Assembly: GCF_009193185.1 (NCBI RefSeq)
Contig: NZ_VUKF01000021.1
Span: 1-64,000 of the forward strand
Direction of reading: 5' to 3'
Origin: Georgenia thermotolerans
GTDB taxonomy: Bacteria; Actinomycetota; Actinomycetes; Actinomycetales; Actinomycetaceae
Length of the DNA stretch: 64,000 bases
In this document: positions 10,271-13,391 of the stretch, piece by piece
How positions within the stretch are numbered: position 1 is the first letter of the stretch
Layout of the letters: each line of letters begins with the position of its first letter
Translations under genes and position numbers: made by a program
Notes under the pieces: generated by a model
Seen by the model: the letters and a program-made list of their open reading frames with translations, nothing else
Database searches by the model: none
Told to the model about the DNA's origin: nothing

Positions 10271-10660
10271 ATGCAGAACGAGCCGGGAGCGGTCGCTCTC
10301 CTCACGTCCCCCTCGCGCACCCGCCTGGTGCTGAGCGGCGACGCGGACATGACCCTCACCCGCGAGCTGAACGAGGCCATCGCCGAGGCGCTCGAGCTGG
10401 GCCTGCCCGTCGACATCGACGTTCGCAACGTCACCTTCATCGACTCCGCGGTGCTCGGCGCGCTCGGCGCGTTCGCCCGGCGGCTCACCGCCCCGCCCCG
10501 GCTCATCCAGCCCCCCGAGGTCGTCACCTTCGTCCTGGAGATCACCCGGATGGGCGAGGTGCTCGAGATCCTCGACCACGACCCCGGTTTCCCCGCCGCC
10601 CCGCCGGCCGCCCCGGTCGACGCCGCGGTGCCGCCGGTGGATGCCGACACCGCGCGGTAG
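10271..10660 (+). CDS. STAS-domain protein (anti-sigma factor antagonist-like)
   Basis: 129 aa; residues ~8-100 form a STAS domain with the signature VRNVTFIDSAVLGALGAFA, in which the Ser is the position phosphorylated in SpoIIAA/RsbV-type antagonists. The last ~25 residues are a Pro/Ala tail. Such proteins bind anti-sigma kinases in partner-switching; no kinase gene is adjacent, so the partner must be elsewhere. Start ATG 10271 follows a weak GGGGGC. It is transcribed alone, followed by the cysteine leader and cbs. Domain call is good; partner unknown. Confidence 0.8.
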   Translation: MQNEPGAVALLTSPSRTRLVLSGDADMTLTRELNEAIAEALELGLPVDIDVRNVTFIDSAVLGALGAFARRLTAPPRLIQPPEVVTFVLEITRMGEVLEILDHDPGFPAAPPAAPVDAAVPPVDADTAR

Positions 10661-10741: not shown

Positions 10742-10747
10742 TACAGT
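10742..10747 (+). promoter_or_regulatory. Predicted -10 box for the leaderless Cys leader peptide
   Basis: TACAGT lies 7 nt before the ATG at 10755, the distance expected if transcription starts at the A of the start codon. No clear -35 is seen, which is common in actinomycetes. Confidence 0.5.
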
Positions 10748-10754
10748 GCCGGGC

Positions 10755-10787
10755 ATGTCCTCGGTCGTCCGCCTGTGTTGTTGTTGA
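10755..10787 (+). CDS. Polycysteine leader peptide (uORF) upstream of cbs
   Basis: A ten-codon ORF, MSSVVRLCCC, ending in three consecutive TGT codons, a rare codon in this genome. The stop lies inside an 8-bp hairpin, and cbs starts 73 nt further on. Polycysteine leaderless uORFs acting as cysteine-responsive attenuators of downstream genes are known from mycobacteria; position, codons, the -10 spacing and the downstream transsulfuration genes all fit. Ribosome stalling at the Cys codons under cysteine shortage would change folding of the leader. Not tested, but chance occurrence in this position is unlikely. Confidence 0.8.
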   Translation: MSSVVRLCCC

Positions 10788-10802
10788 GCGCCCGCGCTCA
10801 AC
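10783..10802 (+). promoter_or_regulatory. Hairpin overlapping the Cys-leader stop codon
   Basis: GTTGAGCG (10783-10790) pairs perfectly with CGCTCAAC (10795-10802) across a 4-nt loop. The left arm includes the last two bases of the final Cys codon and the TGA, so a ribosome held on the Cys codons would keep it open. There is no T-run, so the mechanism (termination or occlusion of a downstream element) is open. Confidence 0.6.
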
Positions 10803-10860
10803 CCTGCCCACCCGCCGACCCGCGCCGCGCCGTCGCCGCGCACCCACCCGAGGACCACAC

Positions 10861-12225
10861 ATGAAGTACGCCGAGACCGTCGTCGACCTCGTCGGGAACA
10901 CCCCGCTCGTCAAGCTCCAGCACGTCACCGGTGACGTGCGCGCCACCGTGCTCGTCAAGCTCGAGTACCTCAACCCCGGCGGGTCCAGCAAGGACCGCAT
11001 CGCCCGGCGGATCATCGAGGCCGCCGAGGCCGAGGGCAAGCTGGGCCCGGGCGGCACGATCGTCGAGCCCACCTCCGGCAACACCGGCGTCGGGCTCGCG
11101 CTCGTCGCCCAGCAGCGCGGCTACCGCTGCGTCTTCGTCGTGCCGGACAAGGTCGGCGAGGACAAGCGCAACGTGCTGCGCGCCTACGGCGCCGAGGTCG
11201 TCGTCACCCCGACCTCCGTGGCGCCGGACAGCCCGGAGTCCTACTACAGCGTCTCCGACCGGCTCGCCGCGGAGATCCCCGGGGCGTTCAAGCCCAACCA
11301 GTACTTCAACCTCAACGGCCCGCAGAGCCACTACGAGACCACCGGCCCGGAGATCTGGCGCGACACCGAGGGCCGCCTCACCCACTTCGTCGCCGGCGTG
11401 GGCACCGGCGGGACCATCAGCGGCACCGGCCGGTACCTCAAGGAGGTCTCCGACGGCGCCGTCCGGGTCGTCGGCGCCGACCCCGTCGGGTCGGTCTACT
11501 CCGGCGGCACGGGGCGGCCCTACCTGGTCGAGGGCGTGGGGGAGGACTTCTGGCCCGGCGCCTACGACCCCTCGGTGGTCGACGAGGTCATCGCCGTCTC
11601 CGACGCCGACTCCTTCGCCATGACCCGCCGCCTGGCCCAGGAGGAGGGCATCCTCGTGGGCGGCTCGAGCGGCATGGCCGTGGTGGCCGCGCTGCGGGCG
11701 GCGCGGGACCTGACGGCGGACGACGTCGTCGTCGTCCTGCTGCCCGACGGCGGCCGCGGCTACATGGCCAAGATCTTCAACGACGACTGGATGCGCTCCT
11801 ACGGCTTCCACCCCGGCGGCGACGAGCGCACCGTGGCCGACGTGCTCAGCGCCAAGACCGGCCGCCTGCCGGACCTCGTGCACGTCCACCCCGGCGACAC
11901 CGTGCGCGACGCGATCGACATCTTCACCGAGTACGGCGTCTCCCAGCTGCCCGTGCTGCTCGCCGAGCCGCCGGTGGTCATCGGCGAGGTGGCCGGGTCG
12001 GTCAGCGAGAGGGCGCTGGTGGACGAGGTCTTCTCCGGCCGCATCCAGCTCGGCGACCCCGTCGGGCAGGTGAGCGGCCCGCCGCTGCCGCTCATCGGCA
12101 TCAACGAACCGGTGGGCGTGGCCCGCACCGCGCTCGGCGCGGCCGACGCCCTGCTCGTCACCGACGCCGGCGTGCCGGTCGGTGTGCTCACCCGCCACGA
12201 CCTGCTGGCCTTCGCCGGCGCCTGA
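10861..12225 (+). CDS. cbs: Cystathionine beta-synthase with C-terminal CBS-domain pair
   Basis: PLP enzyme joining serine and homocysteine to cystathionine, the first step of reverse transsulfuration. 454 aa: a fold-type II catalytic domain with PLP-lysine motif PGGSSKDR (Lys44), TSGNTGVGLALV and GTGGTISG phosphate loop, then two CBS modules from about residue 330 to the end. The C-terminal CBS pair separates it from plain cysteine synthases. The ATG at 10861 is preceded by a Cys-codon leader peptide, consistent with control by cysteine supply. It is followed after 11 nt by metB, forming an operon. Could be annotated as a cysteine synthase by superficial similarity; the CBS pair argues against that. 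Confidence 0.93.
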   Translation: MKYAETVVDLVGNTPLVKLQHVTGDVRATVLVKLEYLNPGGSSKDRIARRIIEAAEAEGKLGPGGTIVEPTSGNTGVGLALVAQQRGYRCVFVVPDKVGEDKRNVLRAYGAEVVVTPTSVAPDSPESYYSVSDRLAAEIPGAFKPNQYFNLNGPQSHYETTGPEIWRDTEGRLTHFVAGVGTGGTISGTGRYLKEVSDGAVRVVGADPVGSVYSGGTGRPYLVEGVGEDFWPGAYDPSVVDEVIAVSDADSFAMTRRLAQEEGILVGGSSGMAVVAALRAARDLTADDVVVVLLPDGGRGYMAKIFNDDWMRSYGFHPGGDERTVADVLSAKTGRLPDLVHVHPGDTVRDAIDIFTEYGVSQLPVLLAEPPVVIGEVAGSVSERALVDEVFSGRIQLGDPVGQVSGPPLPLIGINEPVGVARTALGAADALLVTDAGVPVGVLTRHDLLAFAGA

Positions 12226-12236
12226 GAGGACCCGTC

Positions 12237-13391
12237 ATGACTGGCTTCAGCACCCGTGCCATCCACGCCGGGCAGGAGTTCGACCCCACCACCGGCGCGG
12301 TCATCCCGCCGATCTACCAGACCTCCACGTTCGTCCAGGACGGCATCGGCGGGCTGCGCGGCGGCTACGAGTACAACCGCAGCGCCAACCCCACCCGCGA
12401 CTCCCTGCAGACCCTGCTCGCCGCGCTCGAGGGCGGGGCGCACGCGTACTCCTTCGCCTCGGGCCTGGCCGCCGAGGACACCCTGCTGCGCGCGCTGCTG
12501 GCGCCCGGGGACCACGTCGTGCTCGGCAACGACGTCTACGGCGGCACCTACCGGCTGCTAGACCGGGTGCTGCGCGCCTGGGGCGTGGACCTCACTGCGG
12601 TGGAGATGTCCGACGTCGACGCCGTCCGGGCGGCCGTCCGCCCGGAGACGAAGGTGCTGTGGGTGGAGACCCCCAGCAACCCGCTCATGAAGATCACCGA
12701 CGTCGCCGCCCTGGCCGAGCTCGGCCACGCCGCGGGCCTGACCGTGGTGGTCGACAACACCTTCGCCTCCCCGGCGCTGCAGAACCCGCTGTCCCTCGGC
12801 GCCGACGTCGTCGTGCACTCCACGACGAAGTACATCGGCGGCCACTCCGACGTCCTGGGCGGGGCCGTCATCCTCGACGACGACGCCCTCGCCGAGAAGG
12901 TGGGCTTCCTCCAGTTCGCCGTCGGCGCGGTCTCGGCGCCGATGGACGCCTGGCTGACGGTGCGGGGCATCAAGACCCTGGCGGTGCGCATGCGCCAGCA
13001 CAGCGCCAACGCCCAGGCCATCGCCGAGCACCTGGTGGAGCACCCGGCGGTCGAGCGGGTCTACTACCCCGGCCTGCCCCAGCACCCCGGTCACGAGATC
13101 GCGGCCCGGCAGATGTCCGGCTTCGGCGGGATGATCTCCCTCGCCCTGGCCGGCGGCCCGCAGGCGGCCCGGGCGCTGGCCGAGGGCACCGAGCTGTTCC
13201 AGCTGGCGGAGTCCCTGGGCGGGGTGGAGTCGCTCATCGGCTACCCCGACGCCATGACGCACGCCTCGGTGCGCGGCACGGCGCTGGCGGTGCCGGAGAA
13301 CGTCGTGCGCCTGTCCGTCGGGATCGAGGACGTCGACGACCTCGTCGCCGACCTCGACGCGGCCCTGGCCCGCCTGTCCGTGCGCGTCTGA
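12237..13391 (+). CDS. metB: Cystathionine gamma-synthase/lyase (Cys/Met metabolism PLP enzyme)
   Basis: 384 aa, fold-type I PLP enzyme of the trans-sulfuration family: TRAIHAGQEFDPTTGAVIPPIYQTSTF at the N-terminus, EYNRSANPTRDSL, and the PLP lysine in HSTTKYIGGHSD (Lys198). Paired with cbs it more likely works as cystathionine gamma-lyase to release cysteine, although the sequence alone does not separate synthase from lyase. RBS GAGAGGA precedes ATG 12237; the spacing to cbs is 11 nt, so both should share the cysteine-responsive leader. Symbol follows common actinobacterial annotation. Confidence 0.92.
   Translation: MTGFSTRAIHAGQEFDPTTGAVIPPIYQTSTFVQDGIGGLRGGYEYNRSANPTRDSLQTLLAALEGGAHAYSFASGLAAEDTLLRALLAPGDHVVLGNDVYGGTYRLLDRVLRAWGVDLTAVEMSDVDAVRAAVRPETKVLWVETPSNPLMKITDVAALAELGHAAGLTVVVDNTFASPALQNPLSLGADVVVHSTTKYIGGHSDVLGGAVILDDDALAEKVGFLQFAVGAVSAPMDAWLTVRGIKTLAVRMRQHSANAQAIAEHLVEHPAVERVYYPGLPQHPGHEIAARQMSGFGGMISLALAGGPQAARALAEGTELFQLAESLGGVESLIGYPDAMTHASVRGTALAVPENVVRLSVGIEDVDDLVADLDAALARLSVRV

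Follow-up and report, generated by a model that had tools for sequence, protein, structure and literature searches.

The cbs-metB locus and its leader

The window, i.e. the whole stretch of 64,000 nucleotides of Georgenia thermotolerans DNA that was analysed, carries on its forward strand a gene for cystathionine beta-synthase (cbs, 10861-12225; NCBIfam TIGR01137, 604 bits, over cut-off), directly followed by metB for a member of the cystathionine gamma-synthase/lyase family (12237-13391; NF005871, 661 bits, over cut-off). Of the 80 best-scoring among at least 585 relatives, the named one most similar to the cbs product came from Occultella (85 % identity). A short upstream open reading frame (uORF) precedes cbs on the same strand, with the ATG at 10755 and a TGA ending at 10787. 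Direct reading of its ten codons before the stop (ATG TCC TCG GTC GTC CGC CTG TGT TGT TGT TGA) gave the peptide MSSVVRLCCC, all three cysteine codons (10776-10784) being TGT. The -10 element TACAGT (10742-10747) is located 7 nt ahead of the uORF ATG; inspection by eye revealed no consensus -35 element upstream of it. The last cysteine codon and the stop codon are spanned by a hairpin of 8 bp with a 4-nt loop, GTTGAGCG-CCCG-CGCTCAAC (10783-10802; arms 10783-10790 and 10795-10802). The spacer towards cbs (10788-10860) contains 58 % C and 25 % G, a possible loading region for Rho, and includes the Shine-Dalgarno (SD) region CCGAGGAC (10848-10855) with the cbs SD motif GAGGA at 10850-10854. The complementary anti-SD segment GUCCUCGG (10757-10764) lies within codons 1-4 of the uORF. 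The initial annotation of this DNA had reported the three terminal TGT codons, the -10 box 7 nt before the ATG and the stop codon inside an 8-bp hairpin, and each was found in place; the family searches bore out its naming of both downstream enzymes. Rfam yielded no match in the window at the gathering score, and at E values up to 1 the loci L001, L121, L126 and L131 gave two chance-like matches far below the cut-offs. Just 5' of the uORF promoter, the small protein encoded at 10271-10660 (forward strand) showed a weak match to anti-sigma-factor antagonists (TIGR00377, 24.7 bits, below cut-off).

Among nine genomes of the genus, counting the window's own, a full-length cbs of this type was found in only three, each of them with the uORF. 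The peptides of the two relatives are MSSVVRLCCC (G003) and MSSVVLLCC (G008), and TACAGT is invariant in both. The cysteine tail, on whose conservation in close relatives the initial annotation had staked its reading, is kept in both genomes. In G008, a perfect 24-bp palindrome, ACGGTTCCCGGATCCGGGAACCGT, is located directly 5' of the -10 box of the cbs uORF; it is not present in the window and is perhaps a repressor site.

Cysteine-tailed uORFs upstream of cbs

The 400 nt upstream of cbs were scanned for ORFs of 5-25 codons starting with ATG or GTG, with at least two cysteines in the last six residues and with TAnnnT 5-8 nt before the start. The 104 loci comprised 24 of 30 close loci (L025-L030, about 45-48 % identical and cysK-like rather than cbs, were left out) and the 80 best-ranking of at least 585 relatives, so that frequencies in this sample do not represent the class as a whole. 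A leaderless-spaced, cysteine-tailed uORF was present in 18 of these loci, at a -10 spacing of 6-7 nt, and on the opposite strand in none of the 104. A Markov-1 control gave a mean of 0.035 uORF calls and a maximum of one in 200 rounds, against the 18 observed. Applied to 3410 stretches of 400 nt from both strands of 116 loci, the test was positive in 17, all of them cbs uORFs; some uORFs straddle the borders of these stretches and L032 duplicates the window's own uORF. A further set of 42 loci, consisting of 22 new ones among 30 listed (8 repeats) and 20 picked to spread over families, contained three uORFs (VPVYSSCCCCR, VILELCCR, VSAPLLLCCRR), in three of eight loci from the window's order and in none of 34 from the rest of the class. 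This amounts to 21 of 146 loci with a uORF before cbs; over the last 250 nt, each of the 146 upstream stretches differs from all others. The peptides include MVLC[IT]RLCCC in G072, Occultella aeris and O. gossypii, VLAPLSCCC[HR] in two Promicromonospora, MQIFSCCCR in L023, and tails of CCRR or CRCRR in Herbiconiux, Humibacter, Agromyces, Cryobacterium and others. Two cbs loci had irregular records: under the title Vibrio cholerae 35D, L069 presents a contig whose cbs is of actinobacterial type and 72 % identical to the window's, probably a contamination; in L024 (G095) the match to cbs is split into one segment over residues 2-181 and another over 179-282, which may reflect a frameshift or a misassembly.

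The pattern TGYTGYTGYTRA occurs once in the window, with 0.02 occurrences expected. Bare matches in the whole genome were not enriched (6 versus 11 for the backward control), therefore the case rests on -10 box, short ORF and cysteine tail occurring together, and on conservation. As a genome-wide finder the pattern was rejected for this lack of enrichment; besides the window site, only L031 presented a plausible cysteine-ending short ORF, and this ORF fails the -10 test. The CCRR pattern had four matches in the own genome, and no in-frame start codon lay within 120 nt of any of them. When 396 genomes of the order were scanned directly for the pattern, four matches were obtained (control: two), all four before cbs; two of them appear to repeat known Occultella contigs and are thus not independent. 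The cysteine codons of the 21 uORFs are 47 TGT and 8 TGC, compared with 8 TGT and 75 TGC in 37 high-GC3 ORFs of the window, a filter that must slightly lower the TGT share of the latter. Judging from sequence, the TGT bias may keep these codons out of GC-rich structure or slow their decoding. That the uORF is a chance ORF without function is hardly credible: the missing enrichment of the bare pattern would agree with it, but the position, the -10 spacing, the TGT bias and the presence of such uORFs before cbs in 21 of 146 loci, and nowhere else in 3410 stretches, speak against it.

Two architectures were observed before cbs. Loci with the uORF have an SD before cbs in 17 of 18 cases and a TAnnnT directly before cbs in none. 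The 86 loci without the uORF comprised 37 with TAnnnT 5-9 nt before cbs and 37 with neither TAnnnT nor SD; the remaining 12 score as SD, but 10 of these are GAGGAT hexamers at -10 spacing when read by eye. The cbs mRNA itself thus looks leaderless in at least 47 of the 86, so that the uORF seems to replace leaderless expression of cbs. An apparently true SD together with no cysteine uORF was found in Cryobacterium breve and one Frigoribacterium. A metB directly after cbs on the same strand was present in 16 of 18 uORF loci versus 43 of 86 others, and no metB was found within the covered flank in 33 of the 86.

Leader folding and the candidate switch

The minimum free energy (MFE) fold of the window leader has a value of -43.8 (z -3.84) and pairs nucleotides 3-10 of the uORF with the SD region: GUCCUCGG forms a duplex of -15.8 kcal/mol with 10848-10855, and the stop-codon hairpin is nested inside this long-range helix. 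With a ribosome footprint assumed to span 18 nt on the 5' side and 12 nt on the 3' side of the first base of the A-site codon, the energy for opening the SD was 9.7 kcal/mol without a ribosome, 2.4 with the ribosome at Cys8, 2.8 at Cys9, 9.9 at Cys10 and 10.3 at the stop codon; any position from codon 2 to Cys9 gave 2.0-3.0 kcal/mol. The modelled stall acted alike in G003, strongly in the two Promicromonospora and more weakly in G008 and most others; no change was seen in Occultella aeris and O. gossypii. The ribosome-free opening energy of the window was matched by two of 100 shuffled leaders. At this level (at most 2 of 100 shuffles) it stood out in seven of 18 leaders, namely the window, G003, G008, Humibacter, both Promicromonospora and L088, the latter counted although no SD could be recognised in the sequence that was scored; the opening energy was unremarkable in the remaining 11, where 7 to 94 of 100 shuffles reached it.

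The predicted binding between uORF and SD region was stronger for cognate than for swapped pairs. Duplexes averaged -13.98 for cognate and -11.51 for swapped partners in 18 representatives of the 21 leaders, a difference reached in none of 50,000 permutations. The near-duplicates L002, L038 and L071 had been dropped for this set, and two Occultella, two Herbiconiux and two Agromyces were kept; with 14 representatives, P was 0.00015. Omission of the four strongest leaders gave P 0.0085, an SD side of 16 nt P 0.0003, and omission of the window's genus P 0.0002. Counts of expected uORF-SD base pairs gave no signal for the window (reached by 53 of 60 shuffles) and a mild rise in the sum over 21 leaders (183.7 versus a control mean of 153.4 and maximum of 191.5). 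Such counts barely exceed the shuffles because base composition by itself lets GU-rich cysteine codons pair with AC-rich SD regions. A self-locking switch with the start codon inside the SD helix was rejected as not consistent. Masking of the SD by the 5' part of the uORF itself appears a better candidate switch than the stop-codon hairpin.

The uORF is very probably a cysteine sensor. We propose that it acts in a cysteine-responsive translational attenuator with SD masking as the mode, and put the probability of this reading at about two in three. Leaderless initiation, stalling and the cysteine response with its sign are predictions from sequence. Transcription probably starts at or beside the uORF ATG, and the -10 spacing suggests that ribosomes would load on the 5' AUG without a Shine-Dalgarno sequence. 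With ample Cys-tRNA, the ribosome would pass the three UGU codons and depart; GUCCUCGG at the 5' end of the uORF would then pair with CCGAGGAC and hide the cbs ribosome-binding site, the 8-bp hairpin being folded inside. Under cysteine shortage, the ribosome would wait with the first or second cysteine codon in the A site, its footprint would cover the anti-SD segment and block the helix, and cbs-metB would be translated, restoring cysteine via reverse transsulfuration. It speaks against the attenuator reading that the enzyme annotated as MetB could work forwards and consume cysteine. If the position of the ribosome on the ten-codon uORF decides the access to the cbs SD, codon number and the choice of TGT or TGC become measurable variables.

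Other mechanisms were weighed against SD masking. Rho-dependent attenuation, in which the C-rich untranslated spacer recruits Rho once the uORF ribosome has left and a stalled ribosome blocks the loading, agrees with the composition of the spacers (C exceeds G in 17 of 18 measured and equals it in L023) and with the absence of an intrinsic terminator. The latter was rejected for the window since the hairpin at 10783-10802 is followed by CCTGCCC and has no U-tract. Rho was also proposed for cys and cbs leaders in the accessible text of Seliverstov et al. 2005 (PMC1262725). The region has a GC content of 74 % anyway, however, and the cognate complementarity between uORF and SD is not expected from Rho alone; we regard a switch based on Rho as unlikely, though Rho attenuation and SD masking could coexist. 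Still less probable is that the stop-codon hairpin is the switch, or brakes the ribosome over the cysteine codons, with the SD pairing incidental. The hairpin has 8 bp in the window and in G003, and local-fold z values are -2.2 in these two, -3.5 in Herbiconiux moechotypicola and -3.0 in L023, but it is absent in G008, and the remaining 14 of 18 leaders have z values from -1.7 to +1.3. As it is not kept in G008, falls below a z of -2 in only 4 of 18 leaders and lacks a U-tract, the hairpin is probably not the main switch; with this qualification, the reading of the initial annotation, which had set uORF and hairpin together before cbs-metB, was supported. Least probable among these mechanisms, and quite improbable, is an arrest by the nascent peptide, or a small redox- or metal-binding peptide acting in trans, instead of a response to the Cys-tRNA supply. 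The short cysteine-rich C-termini, several of which close with Arg-Arg in Microbacteriaceae (CCRR, CRCRR), would suit it, but the lineages have only the cysteine run in common and the preceding residues vary. The uORF peptides also comprise only 8-11 residues, and peptides of this length are too short to fill the ribosome exit tunnel.

Cysteine attenuators are known from mycobacteria, and the preferred reading, SD masking by the uORF, has its closest precedent there: Canestrari and colleagues (2020, Mol Microbiol 114:93) reportedly showed the cysteine response and SD masking that is relieved by the stalled ribosome. In the accessible text of papers citing Canestrari et al. 2020 (PMC9031893, PMC9094748, PMC13236596), the mycobacterial polycysteine leaderless short ORFs are described as cysteine-responsive attenuators, and PMC13236596 states the relief of SD masking by a stalled ribosome for translation attenuation in general. 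Conserved cysteine-rich leaderless uORFs in mycobacteria are likewise described in the accessible part of Shell et al. 2015 (PMC4633059). The likeness drawn by the initial annotation to this group was apt: in each, an operon for cysteine metabolism opens with a short ORF that holds contiguous cysteine codons, and leaderless initiation, a translational attenuation that responds to cysteine and an SD unmasked by the stalled ribosome are predicted for the window as well. The window's uORF differs in that it precedes cbs-metB, belongs to another order and has the candidate anti-SD in the first four codons. As far as its accessible text goes, Seliverstov et al. 2005 (PMC1262725) presented candidate cysteine leader peptides upstream of cys operons in Mycobacterium and P. 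acnes and of the cbs gene in Bifidobacterium longum, leaving the mode open and suggesting Rho. These candidates share with the window a short ORF with a cysteine run near the stop upstream of cbs in an actinobacterium, and no terminator; the leaderless -10 spacing, the SD complementarity and other families are added here. The B. longum candidate was the only other cbs leader found in the literature surveyed, mostly open-access papers, and the window uORF is a further example. Attenuators of the trp type also use a codon run for the amino acid of the pathway and a stalled ribosome that selects the RNA fold; the window differs from them by the lack of an intrinsic terminator and of an SD for the leader ORF and by a probable control of translation initiation.

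Sulfur metabolism and the cysK leader

The genome, 99.5 % complete, had no match to PF01507 (PAPS/APS reductase, CysH/CysD) or PF01077 (sulfite reductase); control genomes were positive in 14 of 14 and 11 of 14 cases, respectively. Assimilatory sulfate reduction is thus probably absent, and reverse transsulfuration would therefore matter. Cysteine would then likely come from reverse transsulfuration and, through cysK, from sulfide or a different sulfur donor. A missing PF01507 was not linked to the uORF (11 of 18 genomes with versus 20 of 47 without it, Fisher P 0.27) among 65 genomes, 24 of the close set and 41 of the best 80 relatives.

The cysK gene (G000:C22; TIGR01139, 447 bits, over cut-off) is preceded in L121 (G000:C22:32600-35600, minus strand) by an SD-led, cysteine-rich leader peptide, VSFALVARPAVVAPCRCCSCL. 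Its stop codon is followed at once by a hairpin, GAGCGCCCGG...CCGGGCGCTC (TAGAGCGCCCGGCTC...GGCGCTC). The motif TAGAGCGCC[CT]GGCT...GGCGCTC was present in all nine cysK leaders of the genus examined and not in G072; the short ORF before the hairpin has three cysteines in the last ten residues in six of the nine and two near the end in the other three. No relevant Rfam match was obtained in the three cysK-leader loci searched.

Reading both leaders jointly, we tentatively suggest, at somewhat less than even odds, a ribosome-sensed cysteine regulon outside the mycobacteria in a genome without detectable sulfate assimilation. In this regulon, a leaderless uORF carrying the anti-SD in its own first codons would switch cbs-metB, which only a ribosome held before the third cysteine codon would open; cysK would be switched by an unrelated SD-led, cysteine-rich leader with a conserved stop-codon hairpin; and the cbs uORF would have replaced leaderless cbs expression in scattered lineages of one order. 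With the cbs leaders, the range of leaderless cysteine attenuators would come to include reverse transsulfuration, in several families within a single actinobacterial order. Earlier studies of cbs leaders left the mode open; here the comparison of leaders lends support to SD masking.

Another short ORF, MAATALVVRSRIWLCCC with its stop codon, was observed in L031 at 1459-1512 (G000:C24, near 82974). Conservation of this leader in the genus was rejected, as its gene has no close homologue in eight other genomes of the genus (best identity 41 %). The ORF is followed by tandem TACTGCTGTAG repeats (Tyr-Cys-Cys-stop), and both precede a gene whose product reads as a sugar-type ABC substrate-binding protein.
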